Assembly (NCBI GenBank): GCA_007127665.1 | Contig: SKYY01000200.1 | Location: forward strand, 1-12,312 | From: Balneolales bacterium | GTDB lineage: Bacteria; Bacteroidota; Rhodothermia; Balneolales; Natronogracilivirgulaceae | Length of the DNA: 12,312 nucleotides | Reading direction: 5' to 3' | Shown here: one piece after another, positions 693 to 11,043 of the stretch | Layout of the letters: every line of letters starts with the position of its first letter | Position numbering within the stretch: position 1 is the stretch's first letter | Position numbers and translations under genes: made by a program | The notes under the pieces: generated by a model | Databases searched by the model: none | What the model saw: the letters and a program-made list of their open reading frames with translations, nothing else | What the model was told of the DNA's origin: nothing

Positions 693-1397
693 CTAAGATT
701 CCCATTGAGGCCAGGGGTCTTTAAAAAAGCCTCCCCGGTGGTACATATCAATTTCATCATCGGCACAAAGACTTTTTTCAAGTTTCTTTTGAAGTTCCTG
801 TTTGTCCATGTATTGACCGATAAAGACAAGTTCATTAAGGCGGTCTCCAAAATCTTTGGTCCATCGGCCCTTAATTCTCTCCTCATTAGCCTGAAAGGCC
901 GGGTGTTGATTCCGCTCAATTTTGGGTAGAGAATCCCACCAAACCCCTGCAGGTTCGGCCTTGATGGAGCGGCCTGCCTGGCTCCAGTTGATGGCTATAT
1001 CGGGTCTGGATGCGATCCACAATAATCCTTTTGAGCGCACAATATTCGGGGGCAGGTTATTTGTTATGAGGTCCCAGAGTCTTTCAGGATGAAAAGGACG
1101 CGGTGTCTGAAATACCAGTGAACTAATCCCGTATTCCTCCGTTTCCGGGGTATGCTCATTTTCAAGCTCTTTGATCCAACCAGCAGATTCTGAGGTGGTT
1201 TCGTAATCAAAAAGGCGGGTATTCAGTACGTCCGATAAAGGGACATCAGAGTAAACCGTTCGTATGATTTTCGCTTCCGGGTTTAACTTTTTTACAGCTG
1301 CTTTAAGGCCTTCCTTGTTGTGAAGAATATGATGTAACAGTGTAGTTTTCCCTGAACCGAGAAAACCACTTAAAACAGTGACGGGTAAGCGGTTCAT
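693..1397 (-). CDS. COG0523/CobW-type protein with an internally deleted GTPase domain
   Basis: The protein has 234 residues. It opens with a classical COG0523 (G3E GTPase, CobW/YciC/ZNG1-like) start, [18 protein letters not shown], which includes the P-loop at residues 11-18. After EGLKAAV (29-35) it jumps straight to [12 protein letters not shown], a segment that in full-length relatives follows the guanine-recognition motif. The C-terminal part is complete and typical: [20 protein letters not shown] (85-104), [14 protein letters not shown], a WSQAG motif, and [11 protein letters not shown] near 184-194. Absent are the CxCC metal-binding motif, the Walker B/ESTG region and the NKxD guanine-specificity motif. 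Family members are usually near 400 residues, so roughly 160 appear lost in frame. Relatives are GTP-dependent metal chaperones or insertases, often zinc-linked; this form probably cannot hydrolyse GTP normally. The frame is otherwise intact with no stop. It could be a functional short form, a decaying gene or an assembly collapse. Two Fur-like boxes lie upstream. Confidence 0.85.
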
Positions 1398-1515: not shown

Positions 1516-1530
1516 CGCAATTGAGTTGCA
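1516..1530. promoter_or_regulatory. Fur-family-like box A (over the -7 element)
   Basis: The 15-base site CGCAATT-G-AGTTGCA has 5 of 7 arm positions paired. Its right half is identical to the perfect box at 9970-9984, and the identity extends into the flanking bases (AGTTGCAAATATA). It overlaps the -7 element of the CobW-gene promoter. Short palindromes of this shape are typical of Fur/Zur-type dimeric repressors. The regulator itself is not in this window, so the protein and metal are inferred. Confidence 0.55.
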
Positions 1531-1560
1531 AATATAATCTGTCAATAATACAATAGCAAC
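1516..1560 (-). promoter_or_regulatory. Bacteroidetes-type promoter of the CobW-like gene
   Basis: On the minus strand the -7 element reads TATATTTG (plus 1529-1536), an exact match to the Bacteroidetes TAnnTTTG consensus. Twenty bases upstream lies GTTG (plus 1557-1560), three of four matches to the -33 TTTG element. Transcription should begin near 1523, giving a leader of about 125 nt before ATG 1397. The two elements fall inside two separate palindromes, which suggests repression by occlusion. Confidence 0.6.
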
Positions 1561-1670: not shown

Positions 1671-3086
1671 TCACGTTTTGTCTGCTGCAAAAAAATAAAG
1701 TCCCTTTTTTAAAACAAAACCGAGAAGGAGCACAATCACGCCGAAAAAAGCTCCGGTGCCGGTATATGTCAGGCTGGAATAGAGCATGTAGATACATGCA
1801 GCGAGAAACAACAGAGCAGGGAGGGGATAGAGTGGAATATTCTGCTTGTATCCTGCTTCGGAATTCTGATACTGGAGTTTGAACAAGCCGATGATTACCA
1901 TCAGTATAAAAAACCAGAAAACGGGAGCGGTGAAGTCAACAACAGCGGAAAGGTTGTCGGATGACAATGTGCCGGCAGCAAGAAGAATGAGGGCAACAAA
2001 ACCCTGGACAGCAAGTGCATGACCAGGCGTGTCTCTCCTTTCATTCCATTTGCCGACCAAACGAAATTCGGGATAGTCACGGCCAAGGGCAAAAAGGGAA
2101 CGAGAACCTGTTATAATGGTAGCGTTTGCGGTTGAAATGGCTGCAATGATTATTATGGATACAATCACTGCAGATCCAAGCTGGCCGAACAGCGCTTCGC
2201 TCAATTCTTGCCCTGGTGCTGCTGAATTTCTCAGGCCATCCAACCCCATAATGTGAATGTAAGCAAGATTAATTCCAACATACAAAAGGGTTATCAGAAT
2301 CACCGAACCGGTCAGTACTCTTCCAATAGTTTGTCTGGCGTTTCTTAATTCCCCGGTAAGGTAAGCGGCTTCATTCCAGCCTCCGAATGTCAGGAGCACG
2401 AAGATCATGGCTAAACCCGGCATGCTAACGGACCAGTCAGTGACCTGACCAGGAGTGAGCAACACGCCGTTGTGACCTTCCCCGGAATTATGAAAAAGGG
2501 CGGTGAGACATAGTGTAATTAGCGCACCGATTACCAGAGCGGCCAACAGGTTCTGAATTTTACTGGATTGTCGCGTACCACTCATGTTAATCACTGTCAG
2601 CACGATGACCAATAAGGCTGCATATATGGTGTTGCTGTTAGCGCCTAAATTTGCAATAGAAGTGGCATAATCACCAAAAATAAGCGCAACAAGTGCAAGT
2701 GAGCCGGTTTGAATGACACTGACTCTGCCCCAGGCGAACAGGTATGCCGTTGATGGCCCTATGCTTCTGCGAAGAAAGGTGTATTCTCCACCGCTATCCG
2801 GCATTCGCATGGAGAGAGCGGCGTAGCACAATGATCCGGAAAAAGCAATAATCCCGCCGGCAATCCAGAAAAGTATGAAGTCAGCTTCGTTAGCGGCATG
2901 ACCGGCAACTATTGACGGAAGCCTGAATATGCCAACACCAATCACCATCCCAATTAATACCGCAACAGCACTGAAGCTGCCCATTCTGCGATATTCAGGC
3001 GTTTTATCAGGCGTGATAGCCGACTTGTTCATCTGTTTAAAATTTTTCATTTGATCACGTGCCATTCCATAACCAGATTTACTCAT
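1671..3086 (-). CDS. APC-superfamily amino acid permease
   Basis: This 471-residue polytopic membrane protein has about 12 hydrophobic segments. The first carries the broken-helix motif IGMVIGVGIFRLPS (residues 45-58), where APC transporters bind the amino and carboxyl groups of the substrate. MPDSGGEYTFLRRSIG (95-110) is the conserved loop of the APC/LAT group. FGGWNEAAYLTGELRN (234-249) is the usual mid-protein motif. The likely role is uptake or exchange of an amino acid at the inner membrane; specificity cannot be read from the sequence. Start 3086 is the most upstream ATG. AGGAG lies only 1-2 bases before it, so MARDQ (3065), MKNFK (3050) or MNKSA (3029) are possible. About 150 bases separate it from the upstream barrel gene. 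I see no clear promoter of its own, so readthrough from the receptor locus is possible. Confidence 0.9.
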   Translation of the reverse strand: MSKSGYGMARDQMKNFKQMNKSAITPDKTPEYRRMGSFSAVAVLIGMVIGVGIFRLPSIVAGHAANEADFILFWIAGGIIAFSGSLCYAALSMRMPDSGGEYTFLRRSIGPSTAYLFAWGRVSVIQTGSLALVALIFGDYATSIANLGANSNTIYAALLVIVLTVINMSGTRQSSKIQNLLAALVIGALITLCLTALFHNSGEGHNGVLLTPGQVTDWSVSMPGLAMIFVLLTFGGWNEAAYLTGELRNARQTIGRVLTGSVILITLLYVGINLAYIHIMGLDGLRNSAAPGQELSEALFGQLGSAVIVSIIIIAAISTANATIITGSRSLFALGRDYPEFRLVGKWNERRDTPGHALAVQGFVALILLAAGTLSSDNLSAVVDFTAPVFWFFILMVIIGLFKLQYQNSEAGYKQNIPLYPLPALLFLAACIYMLYSSLTYTGTGAFFGVIVLLLGFVLKKGLYFFAADKT

Positions 3087-3236: not shown

Positions 3237-4748
3237 TCATAGTGCAAGTGTCAAAGATACCGAAATGCCATATTGCAACCGTTTCGGACTAAAACCGTCT
3301 TGCGGGTGGATTGAAACAAATGTGTCTGCCGCGACACCGATATCAGAAGCTCCAATTGCAAAAAACCTTCCAATCGTAGAAGAGAGTGTTGCAATATTTT
3401 GCTCCCACAAGAGAAAGTCGGGAAGAAAAATTCTACGGGCGGCCTCATTCGTCGATCTGGCGTTCAGTCTGTTCTCTAATGGGATGTAGTATTTCACCCT
3501 GATTCCAAGAAGGCTGGATTGTGTAGATCTTGCCAGGTTCGCGTCAACCGACAGCAGGGTCAGTAACCTGTCGGATGCAGAAACAATATCCTCAAGGTCA
3601 TATAGATCAAAGTTGGCGCGTAGCTTCAAAGAGATTCTGTCTGTTTTCGAATTACTCAGCCATGTGTTATTAAAGAAAGCCTGACCTCTGAAGTGGGTAA
3701 GGAGAACATTTTTCCCGTTCAGAAAGGGATCGATTCCATCACCGGATGTCCAATAGCTTCTCAGCCCGAACTCACGGGATCTGTTTTCCAGGGATTGATA
3801 GAATGTCACGCCTGATGAAAGTGTAAATGTATTCCATTCGCCGGTAGGCACGGGGTTACTGATGCCGGTGCTTGCGTTTTCCGTGGATGCAGAAACATCA
3901 AGGAAAGAAACAAGGCTCACATCGCTCCTTCTTATATGCACCTGGATCCCCCCACCGAATGTGTTTTCAGAATATGCCCGAGAAGCAGAGTTGAAGGTGG
4001 TCTGATTGAACGTCTCAATCCCTCTGAGGATCAGGACATAGGTATCCAATTGATTAAAAAAGCCAAGTTCCTGCTCTTCCTTTTTACCCTGGAATGAGCC
4101 GCTGATTCCGAGGTTGACGTTATCAGAAAAGTTGATATTCAGGCCTTTTCTGATGAAATAACGGTTATAAGTGAACATAGGCCTTTCTGCATTTTTGCGG
4201 GCACCTTGCATAACCTCATAGGCAACGGAATATCCAACCCTGAGCTTCTGAAAAAGAATGGGTGAAGCCGCGCTTGATTTTAGGAGTATGTGCATGTTGT
4301 CCCAGTCACCACCGGTTGTGTCGACCCATTGGTAGGGATTGTTTGTACGGACCGGTGCATGGTTTCGATAAAACACGTTCCCGTGATTCGTCTGAGAAAG
4401 CAGTACATCTCCAAGCAGCATCCAGCTGCCGATATTCTGCGTGCCTTTTGCATGGAAAAACCCTCCTGTAATTTGCTCTGGCTCTCTTACAGCTTGCAGG
4501 TCACCACTGCTGAAAAAGCCCGCGGCCTGCAACTGCCCGGTGCTGGATATTCCGGCTTCGGGAAGTCCTGCAGCATTGCCAGCCTCTCTCCATATTCCGG
4601 CGAGGGTGTCAGGAGTGAGTGAAATGCTGGTGGGCAGGTAGTTTTCTCGAACGGAAAATTGCCCCTGAGCCTGGTGGGGTATCGAGACACTGAGAAGTAG
4701 TAAGCAAACTGTCGTTACGAATGAAAGATGCTTCGGAATCGACTGCAT
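3237..4748 (-). CDS. DUF6850-like outer-membrane beta-barrel protein
   Basis: The mature protein is rich in alternating polar/hydrophobic strands with aromatic residues, has no long hydrophobic helix after the leader, and ends ISVSLTLAL, as expected of an outer-membrane barrel. The leader MQSIPKHLSFVTT plus a CLLLLSVSI core and a QAQGQ cleavage region defines the start chosen here (4748, 503 residues). In-frame ATGs at 4772 and 4805 would add 8 or 19 residues. An ATG at 4967 would overlap the preceding gene by 92 bases and is unlikely. WREAGNAAGLPE and GGFFHAKGTQNIGSWMLLGD resemble the DUF6850 family, which in Bacteroidota sits beside DUF4876 and TonB-receptor genes, as here. Function is unknown; a surface partner or substrate channel for the receptor is inferred. 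It is last in the locus, behind a hairpin that could lower its expression. Confidence 0.8.
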   Translation of the reverse strand: MQSIPKHLSFVTTVCLLLLSVSIPHQAQGQFSVRENYLPTSISLTPDTLAGIWREAGNAAGLPEAGISSTGQLQAAGFFSSGDLQAVREPEQITGGFFHAKGTQNIGSWMLLGDVLLSQTNHGNVFYRNHAPVRTNNPYQWVDTTGGDWDNMHILLKSSAASPILFQKLRVGYSVAYEVMQGARKNAERPMFTYNRYFIRKGLNINFSDNVNLGISGSFQGKKEEQELGFFNQLDTYVLILRGIETFNQTTFNSASRAYSENTFGGGIQVHIRRSDVSLVSFLDVSASTENASTGISNPVPTGEWNTFTLSSGVTFYQSLENRSREFGLRSYWTSGDGIDPFLNGKNVLLTHFRGQAFFNNTWLSNSKTDRISLKLRANFDLYDLEDIVSASDRLLTLLSVDANLARSTQSSLLGIRVKYYIPLENRLNARSTNEAARRIFLPDFLLWEQNIATLSSTIGRFFAIGASDIGVAADTFVSIHPQDGFSPKRLQYGISVSLTLAL

Positions 4749-4827
4749 TGGGTTGTAGCGGTGACGCGGCATAGCGGAATACCCTGAAGGCATTGATGGT
4801 TTCATTGAGGCGCATGCCCGGAAAGAA

Positions 4828-4875: not shown

Positions 4876-6096
4876 TCAATCAAATGATCCGGGTGTTGGC
4901 GGTGTGATAATCTCAAAATCCTCTGTCGTGTTACCGGTGTTTCTGAGAATCCTTCTTCCATCCACAATACGATCGGTTTTTCTTCTCGCGCTTTCGGAAG
5001 TGTAGGTCCCGGATGCGCTTACAAACCCTGCGTCAAGAGCAAGGGGGATACGTTTAAAATCACCACTTTGCGGGTTTTGCAGGGCTTCAAATGCGTCGAT
5101 TACCTGATCGATAGGTAACTTTATCCTTGGGGGGATTTGGGGAGGAAAGTCGGGGATGGGAACCTGTTCAAGGGCATCGAAATCATCCACACGGAAAATA
5201 ACTATGGCTGGTCCAAATACAGGTACGAGCCAGGTGAAGCCACCCGTGAAATAAATGCGCTCCATGTTGGTAACATTGGGATTATCAATGTCCCTGTCAT
5301 CATCCCGCTGGTTGTACGTTTCAAAATCGGCATCGCCCAGATTAACCGGACTGTTTGGGTTAAGGTCAGGGTTGTTTCGGTGATCCTGTGCTGTCTGAGC
5401 GATGATAAAACTTTCCCCTGGCTGAATGGGATGGTCGGTTCCGGAGCCGGGAACTCTCCAAACACTGTTCAGATATACGTGGTCCTGATCCGCCTGAAAA
5501 GGAGTTGGCTGAGTATTTGGGTTAATCTGTCCGGAGGGGCCGAAAATATCGGCGATATAGAGACCGTCTGCGTACAATACTTCGTTGGAGTTATTGAAAA
5601 TTTCATGAAATTGATCATTGAAGTAATTTCCTCCTGCAGGGTTCTTTGACCCGGTGTAGTAGACTTCCTTGATTACAAAATTTCCGAGCGCAGATGCCCG
5701 TAAGGCAAGTTCGACTGGGGAGTCGGGTTCTGTTGTGAAGTTCTGGTTGCTCAGGCTTGTGGAGAGCGTGGCCTCTTCTGCATAACCGGCAAGCGTAAGC
5801 ATTTCTTCCGCTGACAATGTAACTTCAGCGCGTACGTCATACCGGCCCGGGATAAGGCCTTCAAAAAGAACCAGTCCGTTTTCGTCGGATGTAAGGTTTT
5901 GCTCGTCGCCCCTTTCGACGCTGGTGAGGGTCACAACCGCTTCGGGAGCAAATGACTCAGAAAATTCATCGGGGAAAAGGACCTGGAATCGAAGATCGAT
6001 ATTTGAGATTCCGGAATCACTGTCGCATGCCCCGGGCAAAAAGCCGGCGAATGCAATCAATGTCAGGATGGACAGTGCAAGTATTTTGTTTTTCAT
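4876..6096 (-). CDS. DUF4876-family lipoprotein
   Basis: The protein has 406 residues. The leader MKNKILALSILTLIAFAGFL ends in PGAC, with the lipid cysteine at residue 24 followed by DSDSG, an acidic tail like the surface-export signals of Bacteroidota lipoproteins. Residues about 33-130 look like an Ig/carboxypeptidase-regulatory beta domain (AVVTLTSVERGDEQNLTSDE, then GLVLFEGLIPGRYDVRA). From residue 139 the family signature appears: NFVIKEVYYTGSKNPAGGNY and DQFHEIFNNSNEVLYADGLY. This resembles the DUF4876 core and, loosely, a lamin-tail fold. DUF4876 proteins have no established biochemical role but typically accompany a TonB-dependent receptor and DUF6850 barrel. Probable placement is the outer leaflet as a receptor accessory or ligand-binding lid. 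A tandem 19-bp repeat lies just before its start. Confidence 0.85.
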   Translation of the reverse strand: MKNKILALSILTLIAFAGFLPGACDSDSGISNIDLRFQVLFPDEFSESFAPEAVVTLTSVERGDEQNLTSDENGLVLFEGLIPGRYDVRAEVTLSAEEMLTLAGYAEEATLSTSLSNQNFTTEPDSPVELALRASALGNFVIKEVYYTGSKNPAGGNYFNDQFHEIFNNSNEVLYADGLYIADIFGPSGQINPNTQPTPFQADQDHVYLNSVWRVPGSGTDHPIQPGESFIIAQTAQDHRNNPDLNPNSPVNLGDADFETYNQRDDDRDIDNPNVTNMERIYFTGGFTWLVPVFGPAIVIFRVDDFDALEQVPIPDFPPQIPPRIKLPIDQVIDAFEALQNPQSGDFKRIPLALDAGFVSASGTYTSESARRKTDRIVDGRRILRNTGNTTEDFEIITPPTPGSFD

Positions 6097-6290: not shown

Positions 6291-9026
6291 TTATGGGCTA
6301 ATTAAGTGGGGAACTCTGATCGAGAAGTTGAAGCCAAAAAAAAGCGGAGGGTTTCTACGAACAAAAGCCCCGCTTCGACGGCTTTCGTAAAGAGGACGGG
6401 AAAAGAAAACGTTGTTTACAAAAAATGAGGCTTGAATATTGTTACCGAACGCCTTGCTGACTCTTACATTGAACAGCCAAAGCGGGGGCGGACGCTCCGT
6501 AAGCAGGAACGAGTCGCTAACCCGTCTCATCAGGTCTTCATATTCATCGTCACCCCTCTGGCTTTCAGGGATCATCACGCGATCCCCTTCGCGAGTTATA
6601 TAACCCAGCGGTGAGAGCATTACATCGTCTCTCCAGTCTGCATCAATCCAAAGCGCCTGAGCCAACCAGGAGACCACTACACCAGCATCAGGAATGTGAT
6701 GAACCATGCGCAAGCTTGTTGAAAAACGCTGCCGGGTTACGGTTTCTCTTCCGTAGATACCTATTCGTTGTGGCGTAGTCGAAGTAAAAAGCTTGTCGGT
6801 ATCAATCATGACTCCTGTATCACCAGAGCTCGTCTGAACCCAAGCGCCGCTCAGGGCAATGGTTGAAATGGCCCGCATACGAGTGTCCAAAGTTACATCC
6901 AGTTCCAGACCCAAATTTTCTGTTTGGCGCGTGTTGGCGGGGAGGTCATAAGCACCCAGAAAAACTCGTTGATCTGCCGGTTCAGGATTCAATATCGGCG
7001 GACTTCCGGCCGGAAAGGAGATCGCTTCAAATGTATGGAATCTGACTGGGTGAACATTGCGCGTAAAGCCATAGGCACCGTCCGTATTTTCAATGTATCC
7101 GGTAATCCCGGCGGTCAGGTAGTCTTTTTCTAAGAAGAAACCAACCTCATATTTGTCAGAGGTATATGATCTCATCTGGCTGTTGTCCGGCTCAACAACG
7201 GCAGTTGTAATTATCACAAGCCGTTCATTCGGATCGGTCGAAAAATTTGCAAAGTTTACGACGTCGAAAAAACGTGGGCCGGGGTACAGAAAGTTGAGGG
7301 GTGGAGCCTTGGCCGTTTTCCCATACGCACCGCGTATGTGCAAGTCATTTAGTATTTCAAACGAGGCATTCAGTCTTGGGGCCAGAACGGTGCCAAATTT
7401 GCCACTTGTCAGGGATGTGGGAGAAACATTGTCATAACGCAACCCTGCCTGTATCATGAACAACCGACTCGAAAAGTATCTTGCCACTCTGTGTTCGGCA
7501 TACCCAGAAAGTATGTTCAGAGATGGTATGTCGTCGAAAGAGCGTGGGCGGTCGCCAACAGAATAGTTCTGCCTTGGGGGTTTTAGAACATCGAACTGTC
7601 TTCCCGAACCGCGGTTAGAATCGTGTTTCCACTCGACCCCTGCCAGTGTGATATTTACGGAATTACCCAGCACAATCTCATTCCGGTATTCAAATCTGCT
7701 GTAGAAATTCAGGGGATTGCCTTCCACAGTTGTTTCATTTCGATACTGAGTGGTGCCAAATGTTCCGGTGATGGTGGTATCGGTGAGAGCATCTGATAAC
7801 GGAAACAGACCAAAACGGGTGATGTTCTCGGCATAAAATCCGCGCTGCTGCCGATAAGTGGAACTTGCGTCAAATGAAAGGCGATGCCTGCGGTCACTTC
7901 CGAGTGCAAGGCTAAGGTTGACACTGGAGCGGACAAACTGGTCCTGTGCATCTCTGACCCTCTGACTGACTTCATCTTGCGGATCAACGCGACGCTCATC
8001 CAACAGTCTGCCTGCCGCCAGCCTTGCATTCAGTCTTAGTCTCTGTTCAGATAGCCAGGAGCGGCTATACCCGGTCTGCAGACCTATTCTGTTAAATCTG
8101 TCAAGGTTTTGTCTCGGGTCAGAATAAGATTGAGTGATGTTTCCTGCGACATGGTAACCCGGTCTGATGTTCCCGTCACCAAAACCGGCTGAAAAGCCAA
8201 TATCGGTCATGTTTGGGTTTAAACTGACTTTCAACTCCGGCAACATATAGCCGGCACGCGTAGTGACAATCACGGCGCCGGTAGTAATGTCGCCATAGCG
8301 TGCTGAAGGAACACCCTGAATCACTTCAATCGATTGGATGATGTCGGGGGAAATCTCCCTGAGATCGGTACCGCGTCCGGCAACGGATGCAAATGGTGGA
8401 AGTGAGCCCGGCGCACTGTTCAAGATGGTGACATCATCCTGGAGGTTTGCATTATTCGAGAGCGGAGACCCATCCACAATGATGCCGGTACCCAGTGCAT
8501 TTGCCCTTATGGCGTCAGACGTAGTGGGAGCCTGTCTGAGAAGGCTTTGTCTCGGAGAGGACAGGCTTGGAGTGCCGGAAAGCTGGCCTGGTAGCAGTTC
8601 AAATAAATCGGCCAGGCTGGATGCCTGCAGGTGTTGAATTGCCTCGCGGGAGATGCGGCTTACAGATCCCGGCTGGTTGATATCAAGTCCCCTGCGCGCT
8701 GTGATTTGAACTTCATCTCCGCGAATGATGGCATAGTCAAGGTAAATGGAAATCTCAGTGATTTCTGTTGCGTGATCAATAGTTATTCTGCGTTCCGAGG
8801 ATTCCATACCCAGGTGGGATACATACAGAGAATGAACCCCGGGTGCGACCTTGATGCACAATCTTCCATCAATGTCGGTTACCCTGTGAATGTCGGCCTC
8901 ACGAAAGTGAACAACAGCATTCGGCACCTGAGAACCATCAACAGCAAACCGGACCTCTATGCAGAGCTGATTCTGTTGATCTGTCACATGAAAAAAGGAC
9001 AATAAGAGGAAAAAGATTAAATACAT
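6291..9026 (-). CDS. TonB-dependent outer-membrane receptor
   Basis: The protein has 911 residues. A short signal peptide (residues 1 to about 18) is followed by a carboxypeptidase-regulatory-like domain at about 20-97 (VPNAVVHFREAD, DIDGRLCIKVAPGVHSLYVS). A TonB-box-like GDEVQITA (103-110) leads into the plug, about 104-258, with GTGIIVDGSPLSNNANLQ and IQSIEVIQGVPSARYGDITT. The rest is a 22-strand-type barrel with repeated aromatic strands. Such receptors import scarce ligands (metal chelates, vitamins, glycans) across the outer membrane using TonB-ExbBD energy. The plug segment GRGTDLREIS resembles receptors found with DUF4876 genes. The last residues, VPHLISP, lack the usual terminal aromatic, although FGFNFSIRV just before could serve as the final strand. 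There is no SusD-like partner, so this is not a classical glycan locus. It lies 45 bases after the upstream lipoprotein gene, indicating co-transcription. A metal-linked ligand is suggested only by the promoter palindrome. Confidence 0.92.
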   Translation of the reverse strand: MYLIFFLLLSFFHVTDQQNQLCIEVRFAVDGSQVPNAVVHFREADIHRVTDIDGRLCIKVAPGVHSLYVSHLGMESSERRITIDHATEITEISIYLDYAIIRGDEVQITARRGLDINQPGSVSRISREAIQHLQASSLADLFELLPGQLSGTPSLSSPRQSLLRQAPTTSDAIRANALGTGIIVDGSPLSNNANLQDDVTILNSAPGSLPPFASVAGRGTDLREISPDIIQSIEVIQGVPSARYGDITTGAVIVTTRAGYMLPELKVSLNPNMTDIGFSAGFGDGNIRPGYHVAGNITQSYSDPRQNLDRFNRIGLQTGYSRSWLSEQRLRLNARLAAGRLLDERRVDPQDEVSQRVRDAQDQFVRSSVNLSLALGSDRRHRLSFDASSTYRQQRGFYAENITRFGLFPLSDALTDTTITGTFGTTQYRNETTVEGNPLNFYSRFEYRNEIVLGNSVNITLAGVEWKHDSNRGSGRQFDVLKPPRQNYSVGDRPRSFDDIPSLNILSGYAEHRVARYFSSRLFMIQAGLRYDNVSPTSLTSGKFGTVLAPRLNASFEILNDLHIRGAYGKTAKAPPLNFLYPGPRFFDVVNFANFSTDPNERLVIITTAVVEPDNSQMRSYTSDKYEVGFFLEKDYLTAGITGYIENTDGAYGFTRNVHPVRFHTFEAISFPAGSPPILNPEPADQRVFLGAYDLPANTRQTENLGLELDVTLDTRMRAISTIALSGAWVQTSSGDTGVMIDTDKLFTSTTPQRIGIYGRETVTRQRFSTSLRMVHHIPDAGVVVSWLAQALWIDADWRDDVMLSPLGYITREGDRVMIPESQRGDDEYEDLMRRVSDSFLLTERPPPLWLFNVRVSKAFGNNIQASFFVNNVFFSRPLYESRRSGAFVRRNPPLFFGFNFSIRVPHLISP

Positions 9027-9071: not shown

Positions 9072-9947
9072 TCAGTATATTGCGGTTTCACGCATTTGGA
9101 AAAAGCGCAGAAATTCAGCTGCTCTGAAGGTGCTGTCCGGTTCATAAAACGAAGATGAATGCTCGTTAAAAAGCCGGACGTTTTCCGCTGCCGCATCATA
9201 TATTCGCAGATCTGCTTCGTTTCTTGTATGACCTTTTTCCACAGCATAGACGAATCTGCCAGACTGACCACTCACAACGGGCAACGACAGGAAGTCTCTC
9301 TCGACAAATTCTCCGGTTTCATCTTGATGAGCCGCTGATGCCACAAAAAAATCAACAGCATGTGAAGGATAACCGTAGAGGTAGCCATAGCCCCTGAACC
9401 TGTCAAGCATGCTTTCAAATTCTATGGTCTGGATGAGGGTCTCTGGGTTTGCACCAGGCGTAAAAGCCCATTTGGACCAGAAATCAGGGTTCTCATCAAG
9501 CATTCTGTCTACGGCATCAGCCCTGAAAACACGCAGTTGCACATGCCTTTTGCCATTAAATACATTCCGGAACGGGAAAAGGCCTGCCCGCAAATCATCG
9601 CACTGAAACGCATCGGTGATCCTGTTAAGCTGCGAAAAAGTTTCCATAAAACGCTCTGACCCCATAATGATCATATCGGAATGAATGGAGTCCGGCTCTT
9701 CCAGGTAGAATGGGAAAGCCATGACATCACTCATCGGTTTGAGATCGGAAATAAGTGTGTGCAAGGCTTCATTTTGAAGCCCGACATAAAGAATGGAGTC
9801 GGCTAGCATAAGGTCCTCTTGCTCCAACCCCGAAAAATCAAAACAGGTAGGATCAAGGGTGCTGGGAGGCGGGTCGGATTCAATTATTCTTTCTTTTGTC
9901 TGACAGGAGAAAAGAAACAGAAAGACAATTACGTAAGTGAGGCGCAT
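9072..9947 (-). CDS. Small lipoprotein of unknown function, first gene of the receptor locus
   Basis: The protein has 291 residues from ATG 9947. MRLTYVIVFLFLFSC is a lipoprotein leader with lipobox LFSC and lipid cysteine at 15. An in-frame ATG at 9974 would fall inside the operator and at the predicted transcription start, so it is rejected. The mature part has no repeats or transmembrane helices. Notable are CDD (116-118), a block HVQLRVFRADAVDRML (135-150), and GYGYLYGYPSHAVDFFV (186-202), the most family-like segment, where His195 and Asp199 stand in an aromatic patch. Two cysteines (35, 116) could pair. I recognise no named domain. As the promoter-proximal gene before a TonB receptor, it could be a periplasmic-side or surface ligand-binding or processing component. 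This is inferred from position alone. Confidence 0.82.
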   Translation of the reverse strand: MRLTYVIVFLFLFSCQTKERIIESDPPPSTLDPTCFDFSGLEQEDLMLADSILYVGLQNEALHTLISDLKPMSDVMAFPFYLEEPDSIHSDMIIMGSERFMETFSQLNRITDAFQCDDLRAGLFPFRNVFNGKRHVQLRVFRADAVDRMLDENPDFWSKWAFTPGANPETLIQTIEFESMLDRFRGYGYLYGYPSHAVDFFVASAAHQDETGEFVERDFLSLPVVSGQSGRFVYAVEKGHTRNEADLRIYDAAAENVRLFNEHSSSFYEPDSTFRAAEFLRFFQMRETAIY

Positions 9948-9969
9948 GTGAATCAATTTATGGTTATTG

Positions 9970-9984
9970 TGCAACTAAGTTGCA
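9970..9984. promoter_or_regulatory. Perfect Fur-family-like palindrome (box C)
   Basis: TGCAACT-A-AGTTGCA is a perfect 7-1-7 inverted repeat. It overlaps the -7 element of the receptor-locus promoter and the predicted transcription start. With its right flank it shares the 13-base block AGTTGCAAATATA with box A before the CobW-like gene 8.4 kb away. Perfect symmetry and placement fit a dimeric repressor of the Fur/Zur type; which member is inferred. Confidence 0.65.
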
Positions 9985-10014
9985 AATATACAAACTTGAA
10001 TCCATTGCCCCAAA
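9983..10014 (-). promoter_or_regulatory. Bacteroidetes-type promoter of the receptor locus
   Basis: On the minus strand, TTTG (plus 10011-10014) is followed after exactly 20 bases by TATATTTG (plus 9983-9990). Both match the Bacteroidetes -33 TTTG and -7 TAnnTTTG consensus without mismatch. Transcription should start near 9977, giving a leader of about 30 nt to ATG 9947. This supports that start codon. Confidence 0.7.
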
Positions 10015-10111: not shown

Positions 10112-10158
10112 CAACACCTATGAATTGCTTCCAACCGCAAATGCTCAGGATCACTGTA

Positions 10159-11043
10159 ATGCCGACAGCTGTTCTTCGTTCGACGAAATTTCTTTTGTTC
10201 CTGCTTCTGGTCTTTTGGACCGCCGGTGCGCACCTCATGGCGCAGCAGCTACGTTTGCCGGATCGACCAGCTGATGCTCCAACGGGCTCCGAATTCAGGG
10301 ATCAGATCCGATTTCTCGCCCTTGCCGCACGGGAAAAGGCAATTTTAGAACAGATTTTGGCGGGCAATGTCCCCGCTTTCCTGCGTGAGCTGGTCCCGGT
10401 TTCCGTCAGCGGGACAGCAGGCGGTGAAACACTGGAAGCCACCTATTTCGTGACACCCGACTATCTGGCCGTGGGCAGCGATGACGACTATTTCCTCATC
10501 CCCATGACGCCGATACTGGCGCAGCGCATCGCCAACGCAACAGGTACCAGAATGCCTACCCGCCGCATGGTTGACCAGATCTGGCAGGCGGCCCCGCTCA
10601 AGCTGTCGCCCCGTCCGATTCCGCCAAGTGATCAGATGACCACCATACCGGTGATGTACGAGCACCATCTGATGGTTTGGGAGCAGCGGGAGCCGGCGCT
10701 GGATGATCATCCGCCCGGAACATTGGTCGCCGGTCACAAGAAAGACGTGGTCATATCCAACCGGATTTTCAACCAGCCGCCTCCGGGACGTGTGGTGATC
10801 TACGGCTGGCATCAACGAAACGGTTCGCCGATCCAACCGCTCTACAGCGGCCACTCTGAGACCTACGCCGACTACAGCCACGGCATCCGGCTGGTGCTTG
10901 ATTCGATTACCGTCAACGGCCAGCCCATGCAGGTCCGTGATGTGCTGCAGCACCATGAGCGGCATGTGCTGCTCAGCGACGAGGGGCTTATCCCGCAGCC
11001 ATTCTACCCCACCGGCGAGCTGTTCGAGGCGCCCGATACATGA
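10159..11043 (+). CDS. Secreted protein of unknown function, G+C-rich
   Basis: From ATG 10159 the product has 294 residues. MPTAVLRSTKFLLFLLLVFW forms a signal peptide, with likely cleavage after HLMA before QQLRLPDR. AGGA eight bases upstream favours this start over ATGs at 10141 and 10120, which would only lengthen the n-region. The mature part opens with a helical stretch (SEFRDQIRFLALAAREKAIL), then a beta-rich VPVSVSGTAGG domain. Its most distinctive segment is VVIYGWHQRNGSPIQPLYSG followed by HSETYADYSHGIRLV, a His/Asp/Tyr-rich motif that looks like an active or binding site. I recognise no named family; a periplasmic or extracellular hydrolase is a guess. G+C is about 60% in sampled lines against about 50% in neighbours, suggesting separate ancestry or different codon selection. 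It is the only plus-strand gene, divergent from the receptor locus and convergent with the porin-like gene. Confidence 0.82.
   Translation: MPTAVLRSTKFLLFLLLVFWTAGAHLMAQQLRLPDRPADAPTGSEFRDQIRFLALAAREKAILEQILAGNVPAFLRELVPVSVSGTAGGETLEATYFVTPDYLAVGSDDDYFLIPMTPILAQRIANATGTRMPTRRMVDQIWQAAPLKLSPRPIPPSDQMTTIPVMYEHHLMVWEQREPALDDHPPGTLVAGHKKDVVISNRIFNQPPPGRVVIYGWHQRNGSPIQPLYSGHSETYADYSHGIRLVLDSITVNGQPMQVRDVLQHHERHVLLSDEGLIPQPFYPTGELFEAPDT

Follow-up and report, generated by a model that had tools for sequence, protein, structure and literature searches.

We propose that a perfect 15-bp palindrome on the promoter of an outer-membrane operon from a Balneolales bacterium is a Zur-type operator, at which a zinc-loaded dimer would repress transcription. 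On this reading, which we regard as likely given the sequence comparisons below, the operon running from the gene of a 291-aa lipoprotein (here lipo291) to that of an amino-acid permease, together with a nearby CobW gene, would be derepressed at low zinc, and the operon would import zinc. The window, that is the whole 12,312-nucleotide stretch of DNA analysed, contains the operon, the CobW gene and three boxes of this type.

The operator, TGCAACTAAGTTGCA, occupies positions 9970–9984 and reads TGCAACT-A-AGTTGCA, with flawless 7-1-7 symmetry. Immediately adjoining it on the minus strand is an exact Bacteroidota-type promoter, TTTG-N20-TATATTTG (10014..9983), the final TG of whose -7 element is common to the palindrome, so that the predicted Zur box spans from these two bases across the predicted transcription start, with the first gene beginning at 9947. 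With the -7 box occupying -12 to -5, its position in Flavobacterium psychrophilum (PMC9723704, available text), this start falls at ~9978, a small correction to the 5' end near 9977 suggested by the sequence-only reading, whose description of a perfect palindrome overlapping an exact TTTG-N20 promoter was otherwise borne out. That reading had also noted 13 bases identical to those of the CobW box, and these are present: positions 1514–1536 and 9968–9990 match at 87% over 23 nt, both ending in the common AGTTGCAAATATA. Its claim that the promoter drives the receptor locus holds in that the promoter lies ahead of the operon, but the first gene is the lipoprotein (9072–9947) and not the receptor.

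Several comparisons indicate that these sites exceed chance expectation. The sequence TGCAACTNAGTTGCA occurs exactly once in the 1.41 Mb of the organism's own genome and, with up to two mismatches, at five places versus one for the reversed control; TGCAACNNNGTTGCA occurs once, its reversed control not at all. A matrix built from 16 sites preceding FUR-family genes of other genomes, with no window site included, gave its two best window scores at 1552 (25.5) and 9967 (23.9), both above the maximum of 19.7 reached in 300 first-order Markov shuffles of the window. A third site, at 1513, scored 8.5, which is not significant alone, and the case for it therefore rests on its spacing and its position on a promoter. 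The promoter consensus by itself is not enriched, TTG-N19-21-TAnnTTTG having 32 matches in the own genome versus 53 for the reversed control; one of the 32, at the regulator gene discussed below, takes in the start codon of that gene, and we do not count it as a promoter. Within the window, both strands together yield only two matches, and both are the box-bearing promoters.

The second of these promoters belongs to the CobW/COG0523 gene (693–1397, minus strand), where TTG-N20-TATATTTG (1529–1559, minus strand) lies between and inside two boxes. The upstream box, AGCAACTTTGTTGCA (1555–1569), covers the -33 TTG, and the downstream box, CGCAATTGAGTTGCA (1516–1530), covers the -7 element and is the site with the weak matrix score of 8.5. 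The starts of the two boxes are 39 bp apart, and exactly this spacing recurs in genomes G009, G242 and G003 and at loci L112 and L120 (each contig is counted once, L113 coinciding with G242:C7 and L112 with G306:C5); exceptions are L218, with a 45-bp pair, and L215 and L150, each with a single box. The best NCBIfam model for the protein is the ZigA zinc chaperone, with 248.4 bits for the window copy and 536.5 bits for the G009 copy, both below the cut-off of 600, and we therefore term it ZigA-like only. Compared with the G009 copy, the window gene is shorter by ~166 residues, an in-frame gap in the GTPase domain just after Walker A that may be either a true deletion or an assembly artefact. 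As a separate observation, an FAD/NAD(P)-binding oxidoreductase gene lies beside CobW near these boxes in three loci (L080:6767-8071, L095:1419-2633 and L218:517-1719).

A candidate for the protein that binds these boxes is encoded elsewhere in the same genome. In this assembly (G000), which is 51% complete, only one FUR-family gene was found; it encodes a 143-aa protein on another contig (G000:C3:2486-2917, minus strand), and a one-mismatch palindrome, TGCAATAGAGTTGCA (G000:C3, 2937–2951), lies directly upstream of it. Across 20 genomes of the family, TGCAACNNNGTTGCA has 24 exact sites in 19 genomes, versus none for the reversed control. When these 24 positions were compared with 34 FUR-family hits, an exact box stood within 120 bp upstream of such a hit in 16 of the 20 genomes, and all 16 were weakly scoring, divergent members; the strongly scoring hits, 13 in 12 genomes (E < 1e-27), all lacked an exact box upstream. 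Besides these 16 regulator sites, two precede the lipo291 operon (in the window and G009), two precede CobW (G009 and G003) and four are of other kinds, namely one before a small membrane protein of G003:C1 and three with no clear target (G002:C17; G003:C225, next to a nucleotidyltransferase gene; and G014:C85). In G003, a divergent regulator gene is present but box-less. The divergent protein retains the FUR-family CXXC pairs, and H69, H95, H97 and C108 are invariant among 10 sequences; judged from known Zur structures, a cysteine in the sensing region may favour zinc. An exact box also lies 16 bp (L096:8034, in G003) and 52 bp (L224:3053, in G306) before a small cytidylyltransferase-like gene, an unexpected possible target of the regulator.

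The association extends to other families of the order. Among 85 sampled genomes the exact pattern occurred in 27 and the reversed control in 5, with a marked partition by family: 17/17 genomes of families f1, f2 and f4 together, 10/67 of f3 and 0/1 of f45. Given the low frequency in f3, three genomes of which carry the reversed control, single f3 sites may be due to chance. We read 20 box regions in families outside f1, and a homologue of the regulator lay at the box in 11 of them (L214, L216, L217, L219, L221, L225 and L228–L232; E from 2e-45 to 6e-8). MerC was also detected, by phmmer or Pfam, in nine of these 11, L232 having none and L231 lying outside the MerC scan. CobW was found in three regions (L215, L218 and L226), and the remaining six (L213, L220, L222, L223, L224 and L227) have neither in clear form, with MerC nearby in L223. 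In G210, five boxes lie within ~11 kb around genes for the regulator, MerC, GTP cyclohydrolase I and a TonB receptor, and box-preceded TonB receptors also occur at L097 and L124. The zinc-related genes associated with the box are CobW, GTP cyclohydrolase I, MerC and TonB receptors. GTP cyclohydrolase I is a zinc enzyme, and in other bacteria paralogues of it are under Zur control; the FolE enzymes of C. metallidurans have reportedly been the subject of one study.

Downstream of the operator lies the predicted operon. On the minus strand, from 9947 to 693, lipo291 (9072–9947) is followed by a 911-aa TonB-dependent receptor with CarboxypepD_reg, plug and barrel domains (6291–9026), a 406-aa DUF4876 protein (4876–6096), a 518-aa DUF6850 protein (3237–4793; start codon uncertain), an APC-family amino-acid permease (1671–3086), which is the candidate inner-membrane partner, and then CobW with its own promoter; the successive intergenic gaps are 45, 194, 82, 150 and 273 bp. 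The DUF6850 protein is predicted to form an outer-membrane-type beta-barrel (pLDDT 80.8). The lipoprotein matched no family in Pfam or NCBIfam, and its confident structure model (pLDDT 90.6) had no clear relative in the PDB; a protein search gathered 114 proteins, itself included, and homologues come from records assigned to several phyla, among them Balneolota, Bacteroidota and Chlorobiota. Permease homologues have a box of their own in G242, G306 (the L112 locus) and L120. A 13-pair hairpin between DUF4876 and DUF6850 (4860–4828, minus strand) could lower expression of the downstream genes, so a single continuous operon transcript is not certain. On the other side of the promoter, the divergent plus-strand gene at 10120–11043 encodes 307 aa versus 729 aa in G009, where the protein ends in a T9SS sorting domain; alongside CobW (693–1397), it is the second gene on the contig that looks cut short.

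The sequence-only reading had suggested looking for the palindrome at orthologous DUF4876 loci, where its absence would count against that reading; it proved to be present in one class of loci only. DUF4876 is present in 5/20 family genomes and in 22/247 genomes of a phylum sample. Of 33 loci, 30 were read and surveyed with the pattern TGCAAY-N3-RTTGCA; nine carry a lipo291 homologue and 21 have none in the stretch read. In all seven evaluable lipo291-linked loci (those of the nine with upstream DNA present) a box precedes the operon, 23 to ~270 bp from the first start codon, whereas none of the 20 evaluable loci lacking lipo291 has a box anywhere in the stretch. G242 holds both kinds, one box-bearing and lipo291-linked, the other box-less. 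A cultured Balneolales strain, Cyclonatronum proteinivorum (G131), also carries the locus. In a tree of 49 DUF4876 proteins, most lipo291-linked rows fall in a 24-row clade (96/91), within which an inner clade of 18 rows (100/97) holds every box-bearing locus, the window included; four further lipo291-linked rows lie in another clade, and the labels require two changes on the tree. Rows that entered from the lipo291 genome scan carry lipo291 by construction, and 7 of the 26 non-duplicate named loci were left out.

That scan, made with a lipo291 alignment, returned 65 named loci, which together contain 47 boxes versus no reversed-control matches, although chance may explain a few that lie in GC-rich genomes (L161, L162, L167 and L168). 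Twenty-eight named loci bear a TonB receptor and do not repeat genomes already read. Among the 27 examined for a box within 600 bp of the operon, five had one (L112, L120, L150, L153 and L155) and 22 did not; the 28th, L134, had no box in its whole stretch. The box-less loci come from Bacteroidales, Prolixibacteraceae, Sphingobacteriales, Gemmatimonadales, Faecalibacter and one Cytophagales record (L147), as well as from Chlorobiota-, Ignavibacteria- and Kapaibacterium-type records. Taken with the seven of seven against none of 20, these absences limit the link to Balneolota and some Cytophagia/Chitinophagia-type Bacteroidota, and do not extend it to DUF4876 at large. Across the 65 loci, lipo291 directly adjoins an APC permease in 13 and CobW in eight, the latter including Planctomycetota and Fimbriimonadaceae records. 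Single loci in Fimbriimonadaceae, Pirellulaceae and Phycisphaeraceae records (L160, L162 and L169), where the lipo291 homologue adjoins CobW (L160, L162) or a weak FUR-family match (L169), suggest that its link to zinc may reach well past Bacteroidota. Independently of the box, the motif GTCTAAA lies 79–121 bp before the receptor in four of the 20 box-less DUF4876 loci (L015, L072, L076 and L081, as an inverted pair in L081) and in one of the seven box-bearing loci (L080, at -311); it is perhaps the site of another regulator.

The proposal that one regulator serves both the receptor/DUF4876/DUF6850 locus and CobW is supported by these data, since the palindrome precedes both in the window genome, G009, G242, L112 and L120, and also precedes the divergent FUR-family gene in 16/20 family genomes. 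It could be argued that the palindrome arose by chance or acts as a regulator-free transcript hairpin: a 7-1-7 inverted repeat could fold into a short hairpin, and the box at 1555 is one of nine terminator-like stems in a setting where 9.7 are expected. We give this explanation almost no weight, as the palindrome is conserved base by base across genomes while its position relative to the promoter varies, some boxes lie on the -33 side, where they would not be transcribed, and the reversed control pattern is absent from the 20 family genomes. A palindrome by itself does not name its protein, and a different dimeric regulator with no relation to the FUR-family gene could bind it. This seems improbable in view of the placement of the box within 120 bp upstream of that gene in so many family genomes, the usual sign of autoregulation, and of the FUR-family gene at the box in 11 of 20 regions from other families of the order.

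A further question is which metal the FUR-family protein senses. An operator of the same protein, but of Fur, Mur or PerR type, sensing iron, manganese or peroxide, with an operon taking up iron, would fit some of the data. The NCBIfam models give the regulator no higher score for Zur than for its relatives, with 42.7 bits for PerR, 39.1 for Fur and 37.4 for Zur, all below the cut-off of every FUR-kind model (167 for the Zur model NF008646), and in the PDB comparison PerR and Fur rank slightly above Zur. The targeted TonB receptors might act on iron, and DUF4876/TonB operons are induced by iron depletion, 20.8–214.5 fold in P. gingivalis and 36.7–128 fold in B. thetaiotaomicron (PMC10434189, available text). 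Loci of the ZnuA family are also mostly box-less: of 17 hits in 16 genomes, 12 loci were read, and two have a degenerate box within two mismatches (matrix scores 18.6 and 16.6) while ten have none; in longer stretches of nine such loci the scores were 18.6, 16.6 and 12.2, the other six lacking a score of 10. The ZnuA family also includes other metal-binding proteins, and control of znuABC by Zur is usual but not universal. Against the iron-type alternative, a strongly scoring FUR paralogue, the natural iron regulator, is present in 12/20 family genomes, and none of its 13 copies has the exact box; the targets include CobW, MerC and GTP cyclohydrolase I, and the scanned box neighbours contain no typical iron gene; and iron-type DUF4876 loci, if they resemble the 20 without lipo291, are box-less. 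The box consensus also equals ATGCAACNNNGTTGCAT, which a 2004 computational prediction placed as the Zur site before znuABC-zur in two Desulfovibrio genomes (PMC545781, available text). Together, the placement of the box before a FUR-family gene, its targets, among them the ZigA-like CobW that adjoins lipo291 in eight of the 65 named loci, and the Desulfovibrio consensus make a Zur-type regulator with zinc as its metal the best-supported reading, and we consider the iron-type alternative unlikely.

Under the Zur-type model, we infer that the zinc-bound dimer of the 143-aa divergent protein would sit on the -7 element and the start before lipo291 and block RNA polymerase. Zinc shortage would release the repressor, allowing lipo291, the TonB receptor, DUF4876, DUF6850 and the APC permease to be transcribed together with CobW. 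At CobW, two dimers covering both promoter elements may impose tighter control, and at the regulator gene the box, which seems from the consensus to overlap the -33 side, could provide negative feedback. What the sequences themselves establish is the operator, where it lies on the promoter and before the regulator gene, its conservation and the targets in common; protein binding, the role of zinc as co-repressor, repression rather than activation, and transport by the operon are our interpretation. Zinc would enter, probably complexed to an organic ligand, with the receptor and accessory surface proteins acting at the outer membrane and the APC permease as the candidate inner-membrane step. 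A more tentative extension, which we hold as a possibility less probable than its opposite, is that the locus forms a complete zinc-ligand uptake route, with an amino-acid-like ligand complex, a paired outer-membrane machine, an amino-acid-type permease replacing ZnuABC and lipo291 as a widespread family of zinc-starvation lipoproteins.

These findings offer a testable zinc-uptake role for the uncharacterised DUF4876 and DUF6850 proteins and for an unnamed lipoprotein found in several phyla, and they give Balneolota and part of Bacteroidota a predicted Zur operator. The word 'Bacteroid' does not occur in the available main text of a Zur review (PMC6103462). The literature searched contained no description of such a zinc-ligand uptake route and no Zur link for the DUF4876 subfamily or the lipo291 family. 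The division of DUF4876 loci into box-bearing and box-less types may explain the iron-responsive appearance of published DUF4876 operons, and the name 'ferric uptake regulator', which public records give to relatives of the regulator, may be misleading.

The operator itself is of an already known kind; what is new is a candidate zinc-uptake locus containing an unnamed lipoprotein family. A close parallel is znuABC-zur of Desulfovibrio (PMC545781, available text), with which it shares the palindrome ATGCAACNNNGTTGCAT, a FUR-family gene in the target unit and a site upstream of the operon. The likeness is one of site and gene context rather than of compared regulator proteins, and the target there is the ZnuABC transporter, whereas here, in another phylum, it is a TonB/DUF4876/lipoprotein/permease locus, CobW and a regulator–MerC unit. 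ZigA, a COG0523 zinc metallochaperone GTPase (NCBIfam NF038288), is the best-scoring family for the CobW proteins of the window and G009, but both lie below its equivalog cut-off, and in the window copy most of the GTPase domain is missing. The P. gingivalis PG1019-22 and B. thetaiotaomicron BT3625-33 operons likewise combine a TonB receptor with DUF4876 proteins and are induced by metal depletion; in that work, whose available text names no operator, iron was the variable, and both operons lie outside our 49-protein DUF4876 sample (PMC10434189). In Caulobacter crescentus, a zinc-limitation regulator, Zur, likewise controls outer-membrane TonB receptors (PMC4176598, available text); in the locus described here, the receptor lies together with lipo291, DUF4876, a DUF6850 barrel and an APC permease.
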